Source: Hydrogenobacter thermophilus TK-6
GTDB lineage: Bacteria > Aquificota > Aquificia > Aquificales > Aquificaceae
Assembly (NCBI RefSeq): GCF_000010785.1
Contig: NC_013799.1
Coordinates: 372,001-436,000, forward strand
DNA length: 64,000 nucleotides
Direction of reading: 5' to 3'
The position numbers were made by a program, and so were the translations under genes. Positions 12,147 to 25,558 of this stretch are shown here, piece after piece. Below the pieces are notes generated by a model. The model did not search any database, was not told the origin of the DNA, and saw only the letters and a list, made by a program, of their open reading frames with translations. The first letter of the stretch is position 1. Every line of letters begins with the position of its first letter.

Positions 12147-12602
12147 ATGGCAAAAAGGGGTCTAAAGGCTCTGCTTTTATCATCCTGCCTTTTCCTTACA
12201 TATTTGGTATCCCTACCAGTATCATCAGCTGAGGGTGAAAACCCCTATAAGGCTAATGAATCTAAACTGCCACCTATGAAGAATCCTTACGAAGGTGATC
12301 AGAAAGCTGCACAGGATGGAAGAAAGCTCTGGTTTGCTAATGGTTGTAACGGCTGTCACGGAGGAACTGGCGGTGGTGGTATGTGTCCCCCAGTGATAAA
12401 CAAAGTTTGGGTTTACGGGAAGTCTGACGCTATACTCTTCAATCTAATTAAGCTTGGTAGTGTAGGACTTAGAGAGAAGTATGGTCTTGTACGTATAGGA
12501 AGAGAAAATGTTGTAGGTGATATGCCTCCCTTCTCCAGTCTATCCGACGAGGAGATATGGAAGTTAATAACCTACATGAGATCCATATATAAGGGGGATT
12601 GA
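12147..12602 (+). CDS. Periplasmic c-type cytochrome, XoxG/PedF-like
   Basis: Probable electron acceptor of the PQQ dehydrogenase encoded at 23147. Signal peptide at residues 1-28 (hydrophobic core, cleavage near SSAEG). One haem site CNGCH (C67, C70, H71), and a likely axial Met126 in GDMPPFS. An additional Cys80 sits in GGGMCPP. The compact 120-residue mature protein and the KLW...GCNGCHG...W.YG layout match cytochromes that serve methanol/ethanol quinoproteins. Assignment as their partner rests on this and on neighbourhood. It has its own promoter and is followed directly by the unknown secreted protein. Confidence 0.75.
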   Translation: MAKRGLKALLLSSCLFLTYLVSLPVSSAEGENPYKANESKLPPMKNPYEGDQKAAQDGRKLWFANGCNGCHGGTGGGGMCPPVINKVWVYGKSDAILFNLIKLGSVGLREKYGLVRIGRENVVGDMPPFSSLSDEEIWKLITYMRSIYKGD

Positions 12603-13180: not shown

Positions 13181-13765
13181 ATAGGTTTTTTCATACTTGC
13201 CGCAGGAAAGTGTGAAAGGTTTGGTGCCCCAAAATTTCTCTTTCCTTACGGAGGTATACCACTACTCAAGAAGCTTTTTCAGGAATGTTTACTTGTAAAT
13301 CCAGAATACACATACATAATAACAGGGACTTATCACAGAGCTGTTGCTTCAAAAATAGATGAAGAAAGACTCATATACAATCCGGACCATGCCGAAGGTA
13401 TGGCTTCTTCTCTGAGATTGGTATCAAAGATATCTGCGCAGCTTGGACTTGACGCTGTGGTGATAATTCTCTCTGACCAGCCCTTTGTAAATCATCACAT
13501 GTTTGAAGAACTCATTAGATGCCACATTGAAGGCTATGAGGTAATCTCTTTTGAGAAAGCGGGAGAACCATGCCCACCTTCCCTCTTTGGGAAGAGTTAC
13601 TACAAAAAACTTATAAGTCTAAAGGGAGACATAGGAGCGAAAAAGATAATAAAGGAGGCGGTGAGGAAGAAGATCATAAAGGGTTATGACCACCTCCTTG
13701 AAGACTTTGATAACATCTGGGAATATCTACGCCTTGCCTCCAAAGATCCTCCTGAAGGGGGATAG
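13181..13765 (+). CDS. MocA/MobA-like nucleotidyltransferase, start codon unclear
   Basis: Likely CTP:molybdopterin cytidylyltransferase, which would supply the molybdopterin cytosine dinucleotide used by the facing Mo hydroxylase. The frame shows GFFILAAGKCERFGAPKFLF (nucleotide-binding loop), PDHAEGMASSLRL, and VVIILSDQPFVN (metal-binding Asp), and ends DNIWEYLR. No ATG, GTG or TTG lies in frame between the stop at 13154 and residue ILAAG; the first in-frame ATG (13400) would remove the active site. Either translation starts at ATA 13181 or similar, or there is a frameshift near 13173-13180, where GTG and ATG exist in another frame. The 3' end overlaps coxG on the other strand by 39 bases. 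Confidence 0.7.
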   Translation: MGFFILAAGKCERFGAPKFLFPYGGIPLLKKLFQECLLVNPEYTYIITGTYHRAVASKIDEERLIYNPDHAEGMASSLRLVSKISAQLGLDAVVIILSDQPFVNHHMFEELIRCHIEGYEVISFEKAGEPCPPSLFGKSYYKKLISLKGDIGAKKIIKEAVRKKIIKGYDHLLEDFDNIWEYLRLASKDPPEGG

Positions 13766-14302
13766 AAGCCATGCAAGGAATGCCTTCAATATGAGGTTCA
13801 AAGCGTTAACTTTCACTGGTTCAGGTGGCATTTTTTTTTCTTCACTTTGTTCAGCCTCAAGATAGCTCTTAGCACACTGAGAGAATTGGGCAAAATACTG
13901 CTTTGCCACCTGCTCAAACATACCTCTACCATACTGAAGGATCTTTCCAGATATATCAACAGTTGCTATCACAGACACTTTCAGAACGTCACCTTCCTCC
14001 TTTAGTGTAGCTTCTATGTTAGCCTTTGCTCTTCCTGCTCCTCCCTTTTCTTTACCCTCCCCCGAAAGTACCATGAGACCTTGTGCCTCATCTAACTTCT
14101 CATACTTCATATTCCCTACAAAGTTAAGCGATACTGCCCCAAGCTTGAGCTTGACACTTGCTTCAAAGGAACCGTCTTCCTTTATTTCTCTTATCTCCGC
14201 ACCAGGTATGCACGGCACTATAAACTCAGGATTGGAAAAAAACTTCCAAGCTTCTTTGAAATCTGCTTTCGTCTCAAAGGATTCCTTGACTACCAATTCC
14301 AT
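13727..14302 (-). CDS. coxG: CoxG-like SRPBCC protein
   Basis: Carbon monoxide dehydrogenase subunit G family: a START-like lipid/ligand-binding fold (residues 1-150, VPCIPGAEIREIKEDGSFEA) with a hydrophobic C-terminal tail (LNLILKAFLAWLLSPF) preceded by a charged linker. In Oligotropha, CoxG anchors the soluble enzyme to the membrane so electrons reach the quinone pool; the same role is inferred here. Last gene of the minus-strand Mo hydroxylase operon. Its start overlaps the end of the XdhC-like gene by 29 bases. Confidence 0.85.
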   Translation of the reverse strand: MELVVKESFETKADFKEAWKFFSNPEFIVPCIPGAEIREIKEDGSFEASVKLKLGAVSLNFVGNMKYEKLDEAQGLMVLSGEGKEKGGAGRAKANIEATLKEEGDVLKVSVIATVDISGKILQYGRGMFEQVAKQYFAQFSQCAKSYLEAEQSEEKKMPPEPVKVNALNLILKAFLAWLLSPFRRIFGGKA

Positions 14303-15251
14303 GCGTAACCTCCTGCTTTACTTTTCTCAAACTCTCCCCCGTCTTCCCCCAATAAACTTTTAGTATCTCTGCCATTATGCTAAAGGCAACTTCTTCAGGC
14401 GTAAAGCTACCGAGATCAAGTCCCGCAGGGCAGTAAACCCTATCATCAAGGTCAAGACCTTCTGAGAGCTTTAAGAATCTCTTTCTTGAGCTTACGACAC
14501 CTATGTATGAAGCTTCTGACATGAGAGCTTGCTTTAAGGAAAGTCTATCCGCTTTAAGGTTGTGATTTGCAACTATAACAAAGCTTCCTTTCGCCATCTT
14601 CACCTTTTCGGAAGGTTCGTGTAAAAAGACTTCAAAGCCAAGTATCTGCGCAATTTCACGAAAGTGGTGAGCTTCCTCGCCACCTCCAAAGATGTGCACA
14701 GGCGGATACCGTAAAAGAGTATCAAAAAATATATCTCCTTTCAGATATGGTCTTACGCCATACTCCTTGATCATGGCTTTGGCTTCCTCTTCAGCAACAA
14801 GCAGACTTCCGACAATTGATCTTTCCGTAACCAAAAGTTTTTCGCTGGAAAAGAGTTTTTTTGCTAATACGAACTTTTCTCCAGTGATGAGAGCATCTAC
14901 CCATGCATCCATAACCTCGTCAAAGTGTAGCGGCTCTATATATATATCCACCTCACCGGGACAGCCCAACCACATACCCCACGAACTCTCCTCTTCCATA
15001 TTTATCCTCTCAAGCACCGAGTAGTTGCTATTTATTACTTCAAGTGCCGTATCCAAGAGACCTTTCTCAAGGCATCCACCTGATATACTGCATATCTCCT
15101 CACCTTCCTCAGTGACCAAAAACTTAGCTCCTTCCTTTCTATAAGATGAACCTCTTACGCTAACTATAGTAAGAAGGGCGCAACGAACGCCCCTCTTTTT
15201 GCAATCCAATATGCCTTCCGCCAAGAGTTTGGCTTCTTTCCAGGTCTGCAC
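14274..15251 (-). CDS. XdhC/CoxI family Mo-enzyme maturation protein
   Basis: Binds molybdenum cofactor and helps insert it, with the terminal sulfur, into Mo hydroxylases. The N-terminal domain has SVRGSSYRKEGAKFLVTEEG and SISGGCLEKGL with the conserved Cys. The C-terminal Rossmann-like part shows VHIFGGGEEAHHFREI and AGLDLGSFTPEEVAFSIMAE. Full-length for XdhC (325 aa). It lies two bases after coxM and overlaps coxG. Confidence 0.88.
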   Translation of the reverse strand: MQTWKEAKLLAEGILDCKKRGVRCALLTIVSVRGSSYRKEGAKFLVTEEGEEICSISGGCLEKGLLDTALEVINSNYSVLERINMEEESSWGMWLGCPGEVDIYIEPLHFDEVMDAWVDALITGEKFVLAKKLFSSEKLLVTERSIVGSLLVAEEEAKAMIKEYGVRPYLKGDIFFDTLLRYPPVHIFGGGEEAHHFREIAQILGFEVFLHEPSEKVKMAKGSFVIVANHNLKADRLSLKQALMSEASYIGVVSSRKRFLKLSEGLDLDDRVYCPAGLDLGSFTPEEVAFSIMAEILKVYWGKTGESLRKVKQEVTHGIGSQGIL

Positions 15252-15253
15252 CT

Positions 15254-16111
15254 TTATACCCCCAAAGCACTTCTTGCAACTCTTACAAAAAGAGCTTTAG
15301 CAAGGCTTCGTCTGTAATCCGCATCCGCATAGTAGTCTCCTATTATATCCTGACCTTCACCAACAAGTTCGGAAGCTCTTTTAAGGGTATCAAGACTTAC
15401 ATCCTTTCCTGCAAGAAGGTTCTCCACCCTTGTATCCCTGTATGGCACAGTGACAAAGCCTCCAAAAGCAACCCTCGCACCTTCTATCTTTCCATCTCTT
15501 AAAGAGAACTTTACTGCACAATTTACTATGGCAAAACCCGTTGCAGGGTGACCTATCTTCATGTAAGCTGCTCTTTCGTTGTTTTTTATAACAGGCACTC
15601 TAACTTCTACCAAAAGTTCATCGGGTTCCAAGGCGGTAGTAAATGTACCCACAAAAAAGTTATCCGCTGGTATTTCCCTGCTTCCCTTTGAACCTCTTGC
15701 GACCATAGTGGCTCCTAATGCAAGCATTGTTGGTGGATAGTCAGCGCTTGGGTCTGCGTGAGAAAGAGAACCCGCAATAGTTCCCATATTCCTTACCTGC
15801 ACATCCGCTATCTCACTGGCACATGCTGATAAAACGGGAACTTTCTCTTTTATAAGGCTTGACTTCTCCACCTCTCTGTGTGTTGTGAGACCTCCTATCC
15901 ATATCTGTCCACCCTCTTCCTTTATGTACCTAAGCTCCTGCAATCTACCTATGTCTATGATTTTTGAGTATCTGGCAAATCTTAATTTGAGCATAGGGAT
16001 AAGGCTTTGCCCTCCAGCCAATACCTTAGCTTCATCTCCAAACTTCTTAACAAGCTCTAATGCCTCGTCCAAAGTATTAGCTCTATAGTACTCAAAAGAT
16101 ACAGGTATCAT
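15254..16111 (-). CDS. coxM: Molybdenum hydroxylase FAD subunit (CoxM-like)
   Basis: Medium subunit carrying FAD, passing electrons from the 2Fe-2S subunit to the quinone pool or another acceptor. The two FAD pyrophosphate motifs are present: KVLAGGQSLIPMLKLR (about 31-46) and MGTIAGSLSHADPSADYP (about 110-127). The C-terminal CO_deh_flav_C domain follows (GHPATGFAIVNCAV). 285 aa, standard. It lies between coxL and the xdhC-like gene with 2-3 base gaps. Confidence 0.93.
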   Translation of the reverse strand: MIPVSFEYYRANTLDEALELVKKFGDEAKVLAGGQSLIPMLKLRFARYSKIIDIGRLQELRYIKEEGGQIWIGGLTTHREVEKSSLIKEKVPVLSACASEIADVQVRNMGTIAGSLSHADPSADYPPTMLALGATMVARGSKGSREIPADNFFVGTFTTALEPDELLVEVRVPVIKNNERAAYMKIGHPATGFAIVNCAVKFSLRDGKIEGARVAFGGFVTVPYRDTRVENLLAGKDVSLDTLKRASELVGEGQDIIGDYYADADYRRSLAKALFVRVARSALGV

Positions 16112-16114
16112 GGT

Positions 16115-18460
16115 TCACACCTCCAACTTATTTATAGCTCTCCATATCCTTGATGGTGTATAAGGACCATCAAGGTGCTTAACCCCAAAAGGCTTTATAG
16201 CGTCTATTATGGCGTTGGCAACTGCTATCTGTCCTGCGATAGCTCCCTCCTCACCAATCCCCTTAGCGCCAAGGGGATTTGCAGGACTTGGAGTTTCAGT
16301 AAAGTAGGTTTCCATTTTTGGAATCAGATGAGCTTTGGGAAGGGCATACTCGTTGAAGGAACCGGTAAGAAGCTGTCCGTCTTCCGTATAGACTATATTC
16401 TCATACATGGCATGACCTATACCGTGTACTATGCCCCCCTGTATCTGAGCTTCTGCGAGTAGAGGATTTATTATTCTGCCAGCATCGTCAACAGCAACAT
16501 ACTTGAGAAACTTTACTTCACCGGTATCAGGCATGACCTCCACCACACAGCAGTGGATGCCAAAGGGGAATGTAAAGTTAGGCGGATCAAAAAAGGCTTC
16601 TGCCTCTAATCCAGGTTCAACGCCTGGAGGTAAGTTCCAAGCCACATTAGCTTGAAGAGCAACATCTTGAATGCTTACCTTCTTGGAAGGGTCCGTCTTA
16701 AGGTAATAAATGCCTTCGCTGAACTCTACATCTTCTGGCCTTGTACCAAGCATGTGTGCAGCTATGAGCCTTCCCTTTTCCCTCACCTTCTCTGCTGCTT
16801 TGTACACTGCCGAACCACCTGTAGATGTACCTCTGCTTCCATAAGTCCCCCATCCCATAGGAATCATGTCTGTATCTCCGTGAAGCACCTCTATGGCATC
16901 CACGGGAACACCGAGTACATCCGCCACTATCTGAGCATAGGTTGTATCCCCTCCTTGACCGTGGGAGTGTGCCCCAGAAAGAACGGTTACTTTACCTGTA
17001 GGATGTACCCTGACTACCGCACTTTCCCACTGCCCAGCCTGTAGTCCTACCGCTCCTACAACCGGTGATGGTGCAAAACCACATATGTCTATGCTTGAAA
17101 CTATACCTATTCCTATGTATCTTCCCTCCTCCCTTGCCTTCTTTTGCATATCTCTGAGAGCTTTATAGTCAACTACCTCCTCAAACTTCTTTAAAACCTT
17201 ACCAAAATCAATAGAGTCGTAAGAAAGCCCCGTCACTGTCTGCACATTTTCACCTGCTGGGAGATAATTTTTCTTCCTAAGTTCAAGTGGGTCCATGCCA
17301 AGTTCGTCTGCAACAAGATCCATCATCCTCTCAAGCAGGAATATGGCCTCGGGTCTGCCTGCACCCCTATCAGCATCCAAAAGCATGGTGTTGGTAAAAA
17401 CTCCGTGCATGACATAATCAAAGGCTTCTATCCTGTACGGACCTGGCAGTATAAGACCGTGAAGGACTGTAGCAACACCGGGAGCAACAGTTCCTAAGTA
17501 AGCTCCCATGTTGGCATAGCTCTTTCCTCTTATACCCAACACCCTTCCATCATTCTTTACCGCAAACTCCAGCTCTGCGAGGAAATCCCTACCATGTAAA
17601 GATGCAACAAAATGCTCGCTTCTTGTTTCTACCCATTTGACAGGCCTCTTGAGAAGTATAGAAGCATAAGAAACTACTAATTCTTCGTTGTATATGTCTA
17701 TCTTCGCACCGAAACCACCACCCACATCTGGAGCTATAACCCTTATCTTGTGCTCAGGTATACCAAGAACTACAGCAAGATAGAATCTATGTATGTGAGG
17801 ATTTTGAGATGTTACCCAAAGTGTTAATCTACCTGTAGCTGGATTATAGTCCGCTATACAAGCCCTTGGTTCCATGGGAACTGGCGCAGCTCTATTTATG
17901 TATATCCTCTGTTTTACTATCCTGTCTGCCTCGGAAAAGACTCTTTCCACATCTCCGCTTTTTACATGCCACCTGAGAGCTATGTTTCCTGGTGCTTCCT
18001 CATGTACAAGCGGAGCACCTTCCTGTATAGCCTTTTCAACACTTGCTACAGCAGGAAGTTCTTCATATTCAACTTCAACAAGTTCTGCAGCATCAAAGGC
18101 TCTTTCTCTGCTATCAGCGATAACAAGGGCAACAGGCTCACCTACATACCTTACCTTATCCACCGCAAGTAACGGCCTTGAAGAGACCTCAGCACTCACT
18201 TGATTACTGTTAGGTACTATCCACGCGGTGAAGTTCTTCCCCACCTTATCCTTTATATCTTGCCCAGTAATTACCGCTATAACCCCTTCTGCCTTTTTTG
18301 CCTCCTCCGTATTTATGCTCTTTATCCTACCATGAGCCACCTGAGACCTCACGAAAACTGCATAAGCCATTCGCGGCAGTTTTATATCCTCCACATACTG
18401 CCCCAATCCCCTGATTAATCTGTCATCCTCAAACCTTCTGAGCGGTTGTCCTATTACCAT
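16115..18460 (-). CDS. coxL: Molybdenum hydroxylase large subunit, form II CoxL-like
   Basis: Catalytic subunit with molybdopterin-cytosine dinucleotide. It has the aldehyde-oxidase ab hammerhead (residues 15-130) and the Mo-binding half with PDVGGGFGAKIDIYNEE (244-260). The catalytic Glu is in GAKGIGEEGAIAGQ near the C-terminus. The active-site loop reads DADRGAGRPEA (362-372). True CO dehydrogenases (form I) carry AYRCSFR with the Cu-binding Cys; this RGAGR loop is form II. CO oxidation is therefore unproven and an aldehyde or heterocycle is an equal possibility. 781 aa. It lies downstream of coxS (13-base gap). Confidence 0.92.
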   Translation of the reverse strand: MVIGQPLRRFEDDRLIRGLGQYVEDIKLPRMAYAVFVRSQVAHGRIKSINTEEAKKAEGVIAVITGQDIKDKVGKNFTAWIVPNSNQVSAEVSSRPLLAVDKVRYVGEPVALVIADSRERAFDAAELVEVEYEELPAVASVEKAIQEGAPLVHEEAPGNIALRWHVKSGDVERVFSEADRIVKQRIYINRAAPVPMEPRACIADYNPATGRLTLWVTSQNPHIHRFYLAVVLGIPEHKIRVIAPDVGGGFGAKIDIYNEELVVSYASILLKRPVKWVETRSEHFVASLHGRDFLAELEFAVKNDGRVLGIRGKSYANMGAYLGTVAPGVATVLHGLILPGPYRIEAFDYVMHGVFTNTMLLDADRGAGRPEAIFLLERMMDLVADELGMDPLELRKKNYLPAGENVQTVTGLSYDSIDFGKVLKKFEEVVDYKALRDMQKKAREEGRYIGIGIVSSIDICGFAPSPVVGAVGLQAGQWESAVVRVHPTGKVTVLSGAHSHGQGGDTTYAQIVADVLGVPVDAIEVLHGDTDMIPMGWGTYGSRGTSTGGSAVYKAAEKVREKGRLIAAHMLGTRPEDVEFSEGIYYLKTDPSKKVSIQDVALQANVAWNLPPGVEPGLEAEAFFDPPNFTFPFGIHCCVVEVMPDTGEVKFLKYVAVDDAGRIINPLLAEAQIQGGIVHGIGHAMYENIVYTEDGQLLTGSFNEYALPKAHLIPKMETYFTETPSPANPLGAKGIGEEGAIAGQIAVANAIIDAIKPFGVKHLDGPYTPSRIWRAINKLEV

Positions 18461-18473
18461 GGCTACACCTCCT

Positions 18474-18950
18474 TTATTTAGTTACTGCGCTTTTTTCTTT
18501 GGCATACAATATAGCTTTAACTATGTTTTGGTATCCAGTGCATCTGCAGAGATTCCCCTTTAGGAGTTTTCTAACTTTATCTTCGTCAAGCTCCTCCTCC
18601 GTCTCAAGTATATCACAGGATACCATCATCATACCCGGAGTGCAAAAGCCACATTGTAGACCGTGCTCCTCCTTGAAGCCCTCTTGTATGGGATGGAGTT
18701 CCGAGTCCGAGGCAAGTCCTTCAACTGTGATGATCTCTGCACCGTCCGCTTGAAGAGCTAACACGGTACATGATTTTACAGCCTTACCGTTCATGAGAAC
18801 GGTACACGCCCCGCAACTGCTCGTATCGCATCCTATGTGCGTTCCAGTCAGGTTAAGTATTTCTCTTATAGCATAAACAAGCAGTGTTCGAGGCTCCACC
18901 TCTAAGGTATGAGATACCCCATTGACAGTGAGACTTACCCTCTCTTTCAT
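18474..18950 (-). CDS. coxS: Molybdenum hydroxylase 2Fe-2S subunit (CoxS-like)
   Basis: Small subunit with two 2Fe-2S clusters connecting Mo and FAD. The plant-type cluster is [16 protein letters not shown] with a further C in KSCTVLA; the second is QCGFCTPGM...[12 protein letters not shown]. 158 aa, normal. First gene of the operon coxS-coxL-coxM-xdhC-coxG, behind a consensus promoter with an embedded palindrome (18997-19025). Confidence 0.95.
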
Positions 18951-18996: not shown

Positions 18997-19025
18997 ATTA
19001 TATTCCCGGAATATATCTCTGTCAA
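18997..19025 (-). promoter_or_regulatory. Consensus promoter of the Mo hydroxylase operon with embedded palindrome
   Basis: Minus strand: TTGACA (19025-19020), 17-base spacer, TATAAT (19002-18997), perfect at both boxes. A 17-bp palindrome TATATTCC-C-GGAATATA (18999-19015) fills most of the spacer and overlaps the -10. That is the usual position of a repressor operator, or of a MerR-type site. Confidence 0.75.
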
Positions 19026-19149: not shown

Positions 19150-21192
19150 TTAAAAACTCAATGCCATACCTACATAGTAATTTCTGCCTGGACCTGGTTC
19201 GTAATACCTTCCCCCTGTTGCATTTGGTACAACTGAGGTTACATACTTTTTGTCAAATAGGTTCTCAATTCTGAAGAAAGCATCCAGATTGTGACCAAAA
19301 ATATTAAATTTGTAAGAACTTTTTAGGTTTACTATTGTATAGCTGTCTGCGCTTGCCGTATTGCTGTTATCTGCCCAGATCTTATCTGCATACTTCACAT
19401 CAATGGAAGCTACCAAGTTCTTTGTAGGCTTCCAGCCGAGCTCATAAAAGAAAGTGTGCCTCGGGATGCCGGGGACCCTCCTACCTGACTTATTTAGACC
19501 ATCCGTATCTATAAAGTCTTTAAAGGTAGCTTCCATGTAAGTATATGATAGCGTAGTGTAGAGATTAAAGGGTAGCTCGTGCGTTAAGTAGAGCTCAACA
19601 CCTTTTCTTTCCGTTTTACCAGCATTTACATAGTAGTTAGTACCCGGAAAGAGCTGCTTTGGTATAAGCTCGTCGGAGGTTTTCACCAAGAAGATGGCAG
19701 TGTCTAAATATGTTCCCTGGCCCAAGAGTGTTTTTATGCCTGCTTCGTAGTTGTAAAACTTGGAAGCTTTAAGATTCTGGTTAAGCCCTCCCGGACCTGA
19801 GGGTGAATTTATAAGCTCTATGAGGGTAGGTGTTATAAACCCTCTACCTACACCTGTGTAGAGGTTTACCCTTTGTATGGGTTTGTAGCTAAGTGTCAAA
19901 GCCCAGCTTGTAAACTGGAAGTTCCTTTCACTTGACACAAAGAGTGCAGAAGGGGATAGCCTGTTATAATCTGCGCTAAAGTTCACCTTTGAATACCTTG
20001 CACCTCCATTAAGCTGTAGACTTTTCGTGATATCAAGGCTCACAAGTGCATAAAGTCCCAAGTTCTTCACATCGCTGTTTTGAGTATATTGAAGGTTCCC
20101 CTTATTCCCGCTGGCGTTTTGGAAATTGTTTCTATCTTCCTTCATAAAATCTGTATCTATACCCAGTGTCGTTTCTATTCTCCTATCCGCAACCTTGAAC
20201 TTGCTGAGCCAGTTAAAACCAACACCATAGTAATCCCTTCCAAAGTCGTTCACTATGACCGGGGTATATCCTGTAAAATCCCTGTGCCCCAGGTAACCAG
20301 TAACCTTAAAGGAGTGATTTTGTACAAGCTCGTGCTGGTAAAGAAATCCTATCTCCCTATTTTGTATAATTTCCCTTGCATCATTTGCTTTGTAAATGGG
20401 AGATGCCTGCTTGGGATCTTTCTCAAATTCTGCTTTGGTGAGAGCACCTGGGTCTTTGGCAAAGGGTTCGTCAAAGAGGTGTAAGAATAAAGTAAGAGAA
20501 GACCTATCCGTAACTTCTACCATTGTCTTGAGGTTTGCATAATTTCTTCTGGCGGAACTGTGATCACGGAAACCAGTAGTGTAAAGGGTTGTAAGCCCAA
20601 ACATGTAATTAAGCCTTTCTACTTGTCCACCCAACCGCAGGTTCTCTTTATGAAAGCCATAACTTCCACCAGATATTTTAAGTTGTGCGGAGATGGGTTT
20701 CAATCCACCATCTTCGCTTTCAAAGTATATTACACTACCTGCGGAGTTACCGTAAAGGACAGCGAGAGGACCTTTAAGAACCTCCACATGCTTTATAAAA
20801 CTCATGTCAAGTTTGTCTATATCACCCTGACCATCTGCCATGGTGAGAGGCACCCCATCCCAGAAGAGCTTCATTTCTCTGACGCCAAACTGTGTCCTTG
20901 CACCAAAACCCCTTATTATTATCTTGGCATCCTGAGCGAAGTTTCTCCCTCTGTCTTGGGCATAAACACCAGATATACGGGATAGGACATCAGCAGGTTG
21001 AAGGTTTGGAAGAGCTGTTTGAATGTTTTCTTTTTCCACAGTACCGGCAGAAGTGGAAAGTTCAAACAGAGGTTTTTCAGTTCTTGTAGCAGTTATAACT
21101 ATCGGTGGGACCTCCATATCTTGTGCAAGTGAAGAGCCAGAAGATACGGTTAGAGACAATAAGATAGTATACCACACCCATACCCTCTTCAT
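19150..21192 (-). CDS. TonB-dependent receptor, PqqU/YncD-like
   Basis: Outer-membrane beta-barrel importer powered by TonB. Signal peptide at residues 1-23, TonB box near PIVITATRTEK, plug domain about 40-160, 22-strand barrel ending in YYVGMALSF (terminal aromatic). Plug and barrel segments resemble, from memory, E. coli YncD (PqqU), which imports PQQ: IIRGFGARTQFGVR, WDGVPLTMADGQGD, DPGALTKAEF, GRGFITPTLIEL, and GRYYEPGPGRNY at the end. Its place behind the XoxJ-like and beta-propeller genes of a PQQ enzyme supports PQQ uptake; a lanthanide chelate or other ligand is the alternative. No pqq synthesis genes are in the window. Confidence 0.85.
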   Translation of the reverse strand: MKRVWVWYTILLSLTVSSGSSLAQDMEVPPIVITATRTEKPLFELSTSAGTVEKENIQTALPNLQPADVLSRISGVYAQDRGRNFAQDAKIIIRGFGARTQFGVREMKLFWDGVPLTMADGQGDIDKLDMSFIKHVEVLKGPLAVLYGNSAGSVIYFESEDGGLKPISAQLKISGGSYGFHKENLRLGGQVERLNYMFGLTTLYTTGFRDHSSARRNYANLKTMVEVTDRSSLTLFLHLFDEPFAKDPGALTKAEFEKDPKQASPIYKANDAREIIQNREIGFLYQHELVQNHSFKVTGYLGHRDFTGYTPVIVNDFGRDYYGVGFNWLSKFKVADRRIETTLGIDTDFMKEDRNNFQNASGNKGNLQYTQNSDVKNLGLYALVSLDITKSLQLNGGARYSKVNFSADYNRLSPSALFVSSERNFQFTSWALTLSYKPIQRVNLYTGVGRGFITPTLIELINSPSGPGGLNQNLKASKFYNYEAGIKTLLGQGTYLDTAIFLVKTSDELIPKQLFPGTNYYVNAGKTERKGVELYLTHELPFNLYTTLSYTYMEATFKDFIDTDGLNKSGRRVPGIPRHTFFYELGWKPTKNLVASIDVKYADKIWADNSNTASADSYTIVNLKSSYKFNIFGHNLDAFFRIENLFDKKYVTSVVPNATGGRYYEPGPGRNYYVGMALSF

Positions 21193-21214: not shown

Positions 21215-22045
21215 TTATGGGTTTATTACACAGTTATCACATGGTAATAAAGGTACATTGTTACTTACAAGAAGGCTCTTTATAGCTTCCTTCTGTTCTA
21301 AGATAGCCTTTTCCACATATTCCTTCATAAGTGTATCACCTTTCCTCACTCCTATTGCTACTTTATAGTCGAGCCTTACATCACTTTGAGACTTCGGATT
21401 AGGAAGTATCATCTTGAGTTTACCGTTATACTCTTTTACAAAGTAACCAGCGATTGGACCCCACAGTACAGCCACATCTATCTTTTTGTCAAGCAGGTCT
21501 TTTATTATTTGAAGGTTAGGGTTATCATCCGGTCTGTTAAAAGAATCGTAAAAGCTGTTGTAACCTACATAATTGGTAATACCCTCGTCTTTAAGGTAGA
21601 AGAAAGCAGGATTGTTCACTATACCCCCTATTTTTAATCTGCTTAGTATGGGATCATCTATACCCTTTATATCAAAACCGCTATCGCTTCTATAAACAAG
21701 CACATAGGTGGACCTGAAGAGGGGTTTGGTGTTCAATGTAAGTTCATATCCAGCTGGCACACCTACCACAAAGTGACAAGCCTTTTCTACAAGAGTATGT
21801 CTTATAAAACCCATCTGCATGGGAAAAAAGTACCGCCCTATCTTTTGCCCATAATAGCTTGCTATGAGTTCCTCTATTTTATTGTATATACCCCTACCTT
21901 GCATATCAAAGAGGGGGATAAGTCCCGGATCACTGCACGCGGTAAGTTCCTTGGGCGCAGGTCTGGCTATTAAAGGGATAAGCAGAGGAAGCAGAATAAT
22001 AAACTTACCTAACACTCTCCATGGCAACCTGTAATTTTTTCTCAT
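21215..22045 (-). CDS. XoxJ/MoxJ-like periplasmic binding protein
   Basis: Quinoprotein dehydrogenase-associated solute-binding-like protein (type 3 SBP fold). An N-terminal signal anchor (residues 10-28) is followed by ELTACSDPGLIPLFDMQGRGIYNKI, the typical opening with a Cys. KIDVAVLWGPIAGYFVKEY and the C-terminal LPCDNCV follow. In methylotrophs XoxJ binds partly folded XoxF and may assist its activation; the same is inferred here. 276 aa. It lies between the beta-propeller gene (31-base gap) and the TonB receptor (22-base gap) in one operon. Confidence 0.8.
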   Translation of the reverse strand: MRKNYRLPWRVLGKFIILLPLLIPLIARPAPKELTACSDPGLIPLFDMQGRGIYNKIEELIASYYGQKIGRYFFPMQMGFIRHTLVEKACHFVVGVPAGYELTLNTKPLFRSTYVLVYRSDSGFDIKGIDDPILSRLKIGGIVNNPAFFYLKDEGITNYVGYNSFYDSFNRPDDNPNLQIIKDLLDKKIDVAVLWGPIAGYFVKEYNGKLKMILPNPKSQSDVRLDYKVAIGVRKGDTLMKEYVEKAILEQKEAIKSLLVSNNVPLLPCDNCVINP

Positions 22046-22076: not shown

Positions 22077-23060
22077 TCAAGGGGTATCTATGCTTCCCCA
22101 CGCTCTGGGAAAAGCTACCGCACCCCAAGGTTTACCTAAACCACTAAATGTCTTTATGACGTGAAAGCCATTTACATCAAAAATTAGCACGTTCTGTGAA
22201 TTTCCACATGGAACCACAAGCTTTGTATAATCCGAAGAATAAGTAAAGTGCCAGCATCTTTTACCAGTTTCTACGGATGATTTTTTAGTTAATGTTTTGG
22301 AGTCAAAGATATCAAGCTTCCCGGCTCTAAAGGATGCAACGATTATTTCTGAACCATCAGGGCTGAAAGTTACACCATAGGGACCTGCATCCGTTTTTAC
22401 CGATCTAATAACCTTAAAGTTATTATCAAGTAAAAGCAGGCCATTAGAATTTTCAAATGTTACAGCATAATACTTTCCATCTGGAGAGGATACAATACCA
22501 CGAGGTCTATCACCGTAAGATTTTAGATCTACATCCCTGAGCTTCTTTTTGGTATCAAGGTCATAAACGGATATGCTGTTTTCACCCTCATTGGTAACTA
22601 ATAAATATCTACCTTCTTTTGAAAAAGCCATACCTTCGCTCTCTTTACCCCCTTCAAATCTAAAGGCTTCCTTCCAATTCTTAGTATCTATTGCAACTAT
22701 GTACGCCTTCTCTACTTTTCCGGTCTCTTCGTATGTCACAAAGAGTAAATCCCTTTTGGGATGCACCTTTACGAACTCAGGGTTCTCACCGAGAGGTACC
22801 TCTCTTACCACTTTCCAGCTTTCTGTAGATACGACTAAGAGCTTCCCAAGCTTCTTGGAAGCTACAGCCAGGTACTTACCATCCTTGGTAACTCCTACGC
22901 CTCTTATCCCCATACCCTTTAGCTCAATGTGTTTTATAAGTTCAAGCTTATCAGTATCTATAGCATAAATTCCTTGTTCCTCATCACTGACAAAAACATA
23001 AGATGCCATCGCTTCAAGATATATAAAAAAACTTAGGAAGAGAGCAAAAAAGTAACGCAT
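22077..23060 (-). CDS. YVTN beta-propeller protein, PQQ-associated type
   Basis: Periplasmic seven-bladed propeller built of YVTN-like repeats (DKLELIKHIELKGMG, KYLAVASKKLGKLLVV, YLLVTNEGENSISVYDLD, EIIVASFRAGKLDIFDS). Signal peptide MRYFFALFLSFFIYLEAMA. The family often sits beside PQQ dehydrogenases and their cytochromes; its molecular task is unknown. First gene of the minus-strand operon with the XoxJ-like and TonB receptor genes, separated from xoxF by a terminator. Confidence 0.8.
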   Translation of the reverse strand: MRYFFALFLSFFIYLEAMASYVFVSDEEQGIYAIDTDKLELIKHIELKGMGIRGVGVTKDGKYLAVASKKLGKLLVVSTESWKVVREVPLGENPEFVKVHPKRDLLFVTYEETGKVEKAYIVAIDTKNWKEAFRFEGGKESEGMAFSKEGRYLLVTNEGENSISVYDLDTKKKLRDVDLKSYGDRPRGIVSSPDGKYYAVTFENSNGLLLLDNNFKVIRSVKTDAGPYGVTFSPDGSEIIVASFRAGKLDIFDSKTLTKKSSVETGKRCWHFTYSSDYTKLVVPCGNSQNVLIFDVNGFHVIKTFSGLGKPWGAVAFPRAWGSIDTP

Positions 23061-23105: not shown

Positions 23106-23137
23106 AAAATAAAAGGGGCAGCACAATGGCTGCCCTT
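23106..23137 (-). terminator. Intrinsic terminator after xoxF
   Basis: In the minus transcript GGGCAGC (23135-23129) pairs with GCTGCCC (23122-23116) across a 6-base loop. Flanking A/U extends the stem, and TTTTATTTT follows. It lies between the xoxF stop and the beta-propeller start, so xoxF is probably largely monocistronic. Confidence 0.75.
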
Positions 23138-23146
23138 GTGGATACA

Positions 23147-25018
23147 TCACTCAAGAGAGAATACGTAGAGAACTCCGCTCATAGTAGCCTGTCTGTAAAG
23201 GTCAAGTTCGAGAGAGAGATTGGTAGCACCCAAACCACCGTAAGGGTCATTGGGGTCAAGATTTGCAGTGACGGGAAGGCCTGCCCAACCACCTATACCA
23301 GAATATACTGCTATATATTGCTTTCCGTTCACCTCAAAGGAAATGGGATTACCTATAATGCCCGAGCCAAGCTTCTTAGACCAGAGCACTTTACAAGTCT
23401 TTAGGTCAAAAGCTCTAAACCACCCATCCATAGTTCCGTAGAACCCAACACCACCTTTGGTAACAAGTACACCACTCCAAGTTGGATACTTCTCATCTAT
23501 GTAGCACTTTATTTCACCTTTTGCGGGGTCCCACGCTATTATTCTGCCATAATGTCCGGGCGTTTTGGAAAGCCCGTGCACGGAAGACTTGTGCTCGTAA
23601 AACTTCATAAGGACATTGGCACCAACATAAGGAGCACCTTCCGTATACTTGGTTTCCGCAGGCTCATAATCCATACACCACTGGTTGGTAGGCACATACA
23701 CAAGCCCTGTTTCTGGGCTGTAAGCGGCGGGTTGCTGGTCCTTACCACCCATGGCAGAAGGACAAACATCCTTCTTGTTATCCCCTGGTTTCCAAGGTGA
23801 TTTGGTGGGGTCTTTTGTAACTTTAAAGGTGTGTCCATCTCTGGCGTGTCTCTCATCCCAGCTCTTAGCCCAGTTTACATAAACAAAGGGTTTTGCGTAT
23901 ATAAGCTCTCCAGTAGCTCTATTAAGTAGAAAGGCAAAGCCGTTTCTGTCAAAGTGTATGAGAGCAGGTACCTTTTTGCTACCTACATTAACATCAAGCA
24001 GTATAGATTCGTTTACGCCGTCATAGTCCCACTGATCGAAAGGTGTCATTTGGAATGCCCACACAAGCTCACCAGTATCTGCATCGCGAGCTATTATGGA
24101 TGTGGACCATTTGTTATCGTACCTTCCACTCTGACACTCTTCCCAACTTGCACTGCACCTGATGTAAGGGTTCCATGTGCCAGGATTGCTTGTACCGTAG
24201 TATACCAGATTTAACTTTGGGTCATAGGAGAACCAACCCCAAACTGTGGCTCCTCCTATCTTCCACTGATCTCCTTGCCAAGTATTTACACCAAGACCTT
24301 TATAGCTTGCAGGTGTTCTTGAACCATAGCACATGTCCTGATCAGGACCTTGGTTGTAGCATAGCCAAACGCGCCTTCCCGAGTTAAGGTCATATGCCGC
24401 TACCCTTCCCCTTACGCCAAACTCACCACCGGAGATCCCTACTATTACCTTATCCTTTGCAACTATCGGAGCCATGGTGATGGTTTCACCCTTGTAAGGG
24501 TCAGCATGCTTTACCTTCCAAAGCTCCTTACCTGTTTTGGCATCAAGGGCTATGACATGACCGTCAAGGGTATTCATCACTATCTTACCGTCCGCATAAG
24601 ATATACCCCTCATCACCGTATCGCAGCAAGCTACAGCAACAGCCCTATCATCCTGCTGTGGAACATACTTCCAAAGAATCTTGTAATCGTTGCCCTTGCT
24701 TATGTCCAGAGCGTAGACTATGTTGGGGTAAGCCGTCTGCACATACATGGTGTTGCCTATCACGAGGGGTTGACCTTCGTGTCCCCTAAGCACACCCGTA
24801 GAAAAGCTCCACGCCAGATCTAGGTTTTTCACATTGTGAGTATTTATCTGGCTGAGAGGGGAGTACCTTGTTAAGTGGTAATCTCTCCCCGGCGCCGGCC
24901 AAAGACCGGCTTTCTTTGAAAGCTCCTCAACCTGTGGGTTGGCAATAGACAGCCCAACCCAGGAAACAGCAGATAAGATGAGGAGGAAAAGCAGCCTGTG
25001 ATACGCCCTCCGCTTCAT
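23147..25018 (-). CDS. xoxF: PQQ-dependent alcohol dehydrogenase, XoxF type (lanthanide signature)
   Basis: Periplasmic quinoprotein oxidising methanol or another primary alcohol, donating electrons to a cytochrome c. Signal peptide about 1-26, then eight propeller blades with tryptophan-docking motifs (GHVIALDAKTGKELW). The vicinal disulfide pair C131-C132 that stacks on PQQ is present. Metal ligands by motif: E199, N278, catalytic D331, and D333 in QWDYDGVNE. The second Asp (Ala in calcium MxaF) marks rare-earth-dependent enzymes. Length 623 aa fits XoxF and related ethanol dehydrogenases; substrate range cannot be told. Own promoter at 25086-25058, terminator after it. Confidence 0.92.
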   Translation of the reverse strand: MKRRAYHRLLFLLILSAVSWVGLSIANPQVEELSKKAGLWPAPGRDYHLTRYSPLSQINTHNVKNLDLAWSFSTGVLRGHEGQPLVIGNTMYVQTAYPNIVYALDISKGNDYKILWKYVPQQDDRAVAVACCDTVMRGISYADGKIVMNTLDGHVIALDAKTGKELWKVKHADPYKGETITMAPIVAKDKVIVGISGGEFGVRGRVAAYDLNSGRRVWLCYNQGPDQDMCYGSRTPASYKGLGVNTWQGDQWKIGGATVWGWFSYDPKLNLVYYGTSNPGTWNPYIRCSASWEECQSGRYDNKWSTSIIARDADTGELVWAFQMTPFDQWDYDGVNESILLDVNVGSKKVPALIHFDRNGFAFLLNRATGELIYAKPFVYVNWAKSWDERHARDGHTFKVTKDPTKSPWKPGDNKKDVCPSAMGGKDQQPAAYSPETGLVYVPTNQWCMDYEPAETKYTEGAPYVGANVLMKFYEHKSSVHGLSKTPGHYGRIIAWDPAKGEIKCYIDEKYPTWSGVLVTKGGVGFYGTMDGWFRAFDLKTCKVLWSKKLGSGIIGNPISFEVNGKQYIAVYSGIGGWAGLPVTANLDPNDPYGGLGATNLSLELDLYRQATMSGVLYVFSLE

Positions 25019-25108: not shown

Positions 25109-25160
25109 TTAAGAATATAACAAAAACCCAAAATTAAATCTATAATAACATTCTTATAAA
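25109..25160. promoter_or_regulatory. Shared upstream motif, xoxF copies (inverted pair)
   Basis: Plus strand has TTAAGAATATAACA (25109-25122) and, inverted, ATAATAACATTCTTATAA (25142-25159). The second, read on the minus strand, is TTATAAGAATGTTATTAT and matches the site upstream of coxS in 16 of 18 bases. The pair lies 22 and about 56 bp upstream of the xoxF -35. Confidence 0.4.
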
Positions 25161-25558
25161 GTTAAAAATCTCTCCTTTGGCTCTATTATAAAGATGCACT
25201 TGCTCTCTTCTTGCCCATCAAATTGCGGATTTCCAAAGGTGTGGAGACTGCCCCAGCAAGGGTAGCACAGAGGATGTTCCAAAGGTTTTTTGTTTATTGA
25301 TAGCTTCTCAAAGAGGCAAACTACTTTGAGTTTACTTCCGTCCGCTTCTGTGCTGTGTTGCAGATTTAAATTTTTACCTACAAATATCATTATAGGCACA
25401 AGGGTACTTATTCCGAAGAATCTCTCCAGAACCTCTAAGGCAAAGGCTATTTTCTCAGTGTCTTTGCCCTCCACTTGCTGGGCAAATTTTCTGAACATTT
25501 TGCTAACACCTTCACCTGCTATAGACCTTATGAGCATTTCCACATCATCCACTTTCAT
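25154..25558 (-). CDS. Hypothetical protein with CxxC
   Basis: Family not recognised. Soluble, 134 aa, mixed: helical N-terminus (VEMLIRSIAGEGVSKMFRKF), a hydrophobic middle (ISTLVPIMIFVGKNL), then PLCYPCWGSLHTFGNPQFDG, which could bind metal. GGAGG nine bases before the ATG and a Pho-box-like promoter (25582-25614) support it as real. It is divergent from the short gene at 25661, and its 3' end reaches into the region upstream of xoxF. Confidence 0.6.
   Translation of the reverse strand: MKVDDVEMLIRSIAGEGVSKMFRKFAQQVEGKDTEKIAFALEVLERFFGISTLVPIMIFVGKNLNLQHSTEADGSKLKVVCLFEKLSINKKPLEHPLCYPCWGSLHTFGNPQFDGQEESKCIFIIEPKERFLTL

Follow-up and report, generated by a model that had tools for sequence, protein, structure and literature searches.

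At positions 19150 to 21192 of a 64,000-nucleotide stretch of the genome of Hydrogenobacter thermophilus TK-6, a thermophilic hydrogen oxidizer, here termed the window, an intact open reading frame on the minus strand encodes a TonB-dependent receptor close to a xoxF-type dehydrogenase gene. The locus raises the questions of what the receptor imports and of what use such an importer would be to this host. The original prediction was that the receptor resembles the PQQ importer PqqU (YncD) of E. coli and that the host scavenges PQQ instead of, or besides, making it. It is considered highly probable that the receptor is PqqU, a TonB-energised importer of the vitamin-like cofactor PQQ, and that it acts in recapture or top-up in a PQQ producer, beside XoxF. 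Homology, signature residues, fold, gene order, the presence of pathway genes and of TonB proteins were computed; we infer PQQ binding, transport, its direction and the recapture role.

Identity of the receptor and its probable PQQ pocket

The receptor gene and the codons of its pocket residues are as follows.

19150..21192, minus strand: pqqU, TonB-dependent outer-membrane receptor of 680 amino acids, with N-terminal signal region, plug and barrel
20887..20889, minus strand: codon of F102, equivalent to E. coli PqqU Y99, which stacks on PQQ (pairwise and family alignment; role from PMC12124388)
20371..20373, minus strand: codon of E274, K274 in E. coli, a proposed metal-coordinating substitution (alignment; proposal in PMC12124388)
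20281..20283, minus strand: codon of R304, equivalent to E. coli R304, PQQ carboxylate (pairwise and family alignment)
20131..20133, minus strand: codon of R354, equivalent to E. coli R365, PQQ carboxylate (pairwise and family alignment)
19639..19641, minus strand: codon of T518, R536 in E. coli, in loop 8, which closes over PQQ (pairwise alignment)

The receptor aligns with E. coli PqqU from end to end at 35% global identity, and the segments IIRGFGARTQFGVR, VPLTMADGQGD, DPGALTKAEF and GRYYEPGPGRNY are all present and align with the corresponding sites. Among solved structures searched with phmmer, 6v81 (E = 1.3e-110) and 9c4o (1.1e-109) are the closest, and FoxA/CntO follow at 1e-19. The top family is NCBIfam TonB_rec_PqqU (NF041535), with 461 bits over profile positions 2-673 of 676; as this is below the strict naming threshold of 1200 bits, the receptor is not named as an NCBI equivalog. 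The score against the TonB-dependent siderophore receptor model TIGR01783 (186.7 bits) does not reach its cut-off of 223.5. A predicted model of the receptor (pLDDT 89) has PQQ-bound PqqU 9c4o as its closest fold (TM 0.90, rmsd 1.9 Å), followed by apo YncD 6v81 and then, with a clear gap, by FecA. A tree built from 43 receptors places it within the PqqU clade (SH-aLRT 99), grouped with the part that contains E. coli PqqU (96); 13 other Aquificota receptors fall apart from it. It is thus a full-length TonB-dependent receptor nearer to E. coli PqqU than to other receptors.

The PqqU signature of Munder et al. (2025) consists of Y99 (or F/W), R304 and R365 (PMC12124388). In the receptor Y99 is represented by F102, R304 is kept and R365 corresponds to R354, so that the full signature is present, as it is in all 136 PqqU loci aligned. 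Q84 of the E. coli protein aligns with Q87. The less conserved contacts K274 and R536 are both absent (E274 and T518), and these are not defining, because the authors of the signature did not filter on them. Position 274 is Lys in 118 of the 136 loci, Gln in 10, Glu in 5 and Val in 3. Further differences from E. coli PqqU are Q121D, N477I and Y481N. Points that count against a PqqU importer are that identity is only 35% to the sole characterised PqqU, with a score under the equivalog cut-off, and that K274E and R536E are each, singly, harmful in E. coli PqqU (PMC12124388).

By sequence, fold, tree and the three signature residues, the predicted resemblance to PqqU is borne out, and on sequence grounds the receptor is a PqqU homologue. 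The identification is correct but not new. Munder et al. (2025) named and modelled a Hydrogenobacter thermophilus PqqU (QWK201176) that is without the R536 contact (PMC12124388). Compared by description, this protein is from the same species and lacks R536 as the present receptor does; the literature therefore already contains this receptor or a close relative of it in that species. PqqU is thus known in kind and apparently also in this species. The xoxF neighbourhood and the host synthesis genes are not discussed in the main text of that paper (PMC12124388).

A location beside xoxF is also where a lanthanide-uptake receptor might be found, and TonB receptors switch ligand easily. LutH and LanA, by their description, are likewise TonB-dependent receptors in XoxF users but function in lanthanide import (PMC12482762). 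It is extremely unlikely that the present receptor imports a lanthanophore or siderophore and not PQQ: siderophore receptors rank far lower both by sequence and by fold, and the arginines for the PQQ carboxylates and the stacking aromatic residue are kept. A closer similarity to siderophore receptors together with loss of the pocket residues, named beforehand as an outcome that would count against PqqU, is not seen with siderophore receptors in sequence, fold or pocket.

The lower-scoring Aquificota matches, which reach ~200 bits, were also examined as possible PqqUs but do not qualify: every one that was aligned has another residue in place of R304, mostly Q, N or S, and those placed in the tree lie outside the PqqU branch. 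A second receptor of the host (C1:238373-240361; L052:4266-6365) has R304 replaced, is nearest to siderophore-type models and is not PqqU. A TonB gene (C1:242323-242547) lies ~2 kb downstream of it.

Neighbouring genes and transcription units

The features that surround pqqU in the window are listed below.

23147..25018, minus strand: xoxF-type PQQ-dependent methanol dehydrogenase (family match; lanthanide ligands conserved)
23116..23135, minus strand: intrinsic-terminator-like hairpin behind xoxF (-14.0 kcal/mol; counterpart in the sister genome G028)
22077..23060, minus strand: YncE/PQQ-associated 7-bladed beta-propeller protein (TIGR03866, 150 bits, below cut-off)
21215..22045, minus strand: MoxJ/XoxJ-like periplasmic solute-binding-type protein (TIGR03871, 208.7 bits, just under the cut-off of 212)
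18997..19025, minus strand: sigma-70 consensus promoter-like site, a perfect TTGACA-17-TATAAT, downstream of pqqU and kept in G028
12147..12602, plus strand: c-type cytochrome (weak MoxG-like match, 41 bits)

The genes follow one another in the same direction: xoxF, 86 bp, the propeller gene, 31 bp, the MoxJ/XoxJ-like gene, 22 bp and pqqU. The xoxF product, of the PQQ alcohol dehydrogenase family, has Methylacidiphilum fumariolicum XoxF 4MAE as its closest solved structure (750 bits). E172, N256, D299 and the extra aspartate D301 of 4MAE, which we take to be its lanthanide ligands, are all conserved, and the protein is classed as XoxF on this basis. The description of the neighbours as PQQ-enzyme accessory genes is confirmed by the dehydrogenase, the beta-propeller and the MoxJ/XoxJ-like protein, and such neighbours speak for a PQQ importer.

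The proposed operon stands for the propeller, xoxJ and pqqU genes; the conserved terminator-like hairpin parts xoxF from this trio. In G028 the hairpin is found in the same place with a different stem sequence (-14.9 kcal/mol). Since the conserved hairpin lies 3′ of xoxF and the promoter-like site 3′ of pqqU, the pqqU unit is taken to be propeller-xoxJ-pqqU, into which some transcription from xoxF may carry on. The c-type cytochrome is a candidate electron acceptor for XoxF.

Past the promoter-like site, on the minus strand at 13727-18950 of the window, are genes for a molybdenum hydroxylase, which resemble glyceraldehyde/CO dehydrogenase models most but score below their cut-offs; an XdhC-like and a CoxG-like gene, both assigned by eye, accompany them. 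These look like a separate transcription unit, and the set, which adjoins methanol oxidation genes, could oxidize an aldehyde product. Upstream of xoxF, a 134-amino-acid open reading frame (25154-25558, minus strand) has no Pfam match and may not be a gene.

Similar gene sets are known. In E. coli, yncE is beside pqqU, and a YncE-type propeller gene is near the H. thermophilus pqqU; the two receptors also share plug and barrel. H. thermophilus, however, has xoxF nearby and by gene content makes PQQ, whereas E. coli makes no PQQ and uses Gcd (PMC12124388). In Acidobacteria and Gemmatimonadetes, too, XoxF clusters contain a TonB receptor along with a YncE-like propeller, but these clusters differ in that they have XoxF3 and cytochrome oxidase genes, and the receptor is given no type there (PMC10875860).

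PQQ synthesis genes and a probable role for import

The remark that no PQQ synthesis genes are in view is true near the receptor; the genes sit elsewhere. The host genome is one contig of 1,743,135 bp, and a pqq cluster is found at C1:1099816-1104807, ~707 kb from pqqU. Its order is probable pqqA, pqqC, pqqE, a second pqqC, pqqB and an MFS gene, on which a PqqD gene converges. The two pqqC genes (275 and 264 bits), pqqE (431), pqqB (249) and PqqD (49) all score over curated cut-offs. The probable pqqA encodes 27 amino acids from ATG, has a Glu-x3-Tyr motif and a strong Shine-Dalgarno sequence, and its peptide is letter-for-letter identical in G028. As it is short and is not recognized by Pfam or NCBIfam, the call is based on position, motif and sister-genome identity. 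By gene content the host thus has pqqA, B, C, D and E, and the cluster including its terminal MFS gene is conserved in G028.

The first PqqC keeps the equivalent of the active-site His154 of Klebsiella PqqC; in the second PqqC of both species (C1:1101751-1102470 in the host, L051:7773-8483 in G028) Ile replaces it, and this copy is possibly a non-catalytic partner. The two copies flank pqqE, at C1:1099954-1100673 (L012:7955-8674) and C1:1101751-1102470 (L012:9752-10471), and in G028 within L051. In the N-terminal part the copies within each species share stretches of 142 and 99 identical bases, and orthologues there differ by ~20-30%; the C-terminal parts of the paired copies have diverged. 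Judged from this pattern, the shared stretches are a product of repeated gene conversion inside the operon.

Presence of pqqC, D and E had been named in advance as weakening the scavenging idea. With pqqC, pqqE, pqqB, PqqD and the probable pqqA in the genome, scavenging in place of synthesis is refuted as far as gene content goes. Scavenging besides synthesis remains and is the likely case. A host that relies on outside PQQ, with pqq genes that are non-functional or yield another product, is very unlikely. Such dependence would fit an importer that adjoins the enzyme, with the synthesis genes at a distance, a second PqqC without His154 and a short pqqA outside the family models. It does not fit a first PqqC that retains the His154 equivalent, pathway proteins that score over curated cut-offs, or a cluster kept in the sister species with an identical pqqA peptide and its Shine-Dalgarno sequence.

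In the favoured reading, PqqU as an importer in a producer, outside PQQ would bind in the barrel pocket, where F102 would stack on it, R304 and R354 would hold its carboxylates and Q87 would reach it from the plug. TonB would then pull the plug and PQQ would enter the periplasm; three TonB_C proteins are encoded in the host genome. Periplasmic apo-XoxF would take up PQQ together with a lanthanide, possibly with a part for the XoxJ-like protein. Synthesis in the cytoplasm would proceed from pqqACEC′B and pqqD, and the importer, set beside the PQQ-consuming enzyme, would recapture leaked PQQ or top it up from neighbours. As the host makes its own PQQ, the importer would thus recapture or top up and not replace synthesis.

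Glutamate 274 and distribution of PqqU

Many PqqU homologues carry Glu274, and the holding of a metal there has been proposed (PMC12124388). By extension, Glu274 and PQQ together might hold Ca2+ or a lanthanide, in which case PqqU would also feed metal to XoxF, with PQQ as a home-made metallophore. The K274E change in the receptor, published modelling that puts a metal at Glu274 (PMC12124388), xoxF next door and the MFS exporter-type gene that ends the pqq cluster in both species (weakly EntS-like, 68 bits, below cut-off) are consistent with such co-transport. Yet confidence in the metal of the published model is low (PMC12124388), and an exporter would be required in any case for PQQ to reach the periplasm. 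Of the five Glu274 loci among the 136, only the two from Hydrogenobacter adjoin xoxF; no PQQ alcohol dehydrogenase or xoxF gene was found within 8 kb of the other three, and two of those three genomes are without the family. In one of these two, a pseudomonadote, the Glu274 PqqU gene is directly before a glucose/sorbosone dehydrogenase gene (PF07995; L210:7860-11288). Methylophilaceae that have PQQ alcohol dehydrogenases carry Val274. A link between Glu274 and lanthanide dehydrogenases was thus not found in the 136 loci, a small sample that is mostly Pseudomonadota. Co-transport of metal is considered unlikely. Given even less weight is a full metallophore cycle, in which self-made PQQ would be exported with the aid of the MFS protein, bind a lanthanide outside and return as metal-PQQ through the Glu274 PqqU, to supply XoxF with both cofactors.

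PqqU as a PQQ importer in a producer is ordinary, as 26 of 59 PqqU-bearing Pseudomonadota genomes (a non-random sample) have pqqC and the published figure is 23% (PMC12124388); 25 of the 59 have the dehydrogenase family over cut-off. Outside Hydrogenobacter, a PQQ alcohol dehydrogenase homologue lies within 6 kb in 14 of 133 PqqU loci, and a glucose/sorbosone dehydrogenase gene is directly downstream in one of 133.

In a survey of 136 Aquificota genomes, a strong PqqU (460 bits, the next match being 202), PqqC and the PQQ alcohol dehydrogenase family are each found only in the host and G028. These are two species of the genus Hydrogenobacter; three other members of the genus are without all three. 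This shared distribution speaks for the importer reading, but the two are sister species and the co-occurrence represents one evolutionary event, which counts as a point against it. As a single event, it suggests that synthesis and import of PQQ were gained or kept together with methanol oxidation.

The locus corrects a plausible inference, in that pqq genes missing near a receptor are not necessarily missing from the genome. Strong PqqU, PqqC and PQQ alcohol dehydrogenase matches coincide in two of the 136 Aquificota genomes, and this pair provides a clean case for the question of why producers keep an importer, and is also suited to asking whether a Glu274 PqqU carries metal.
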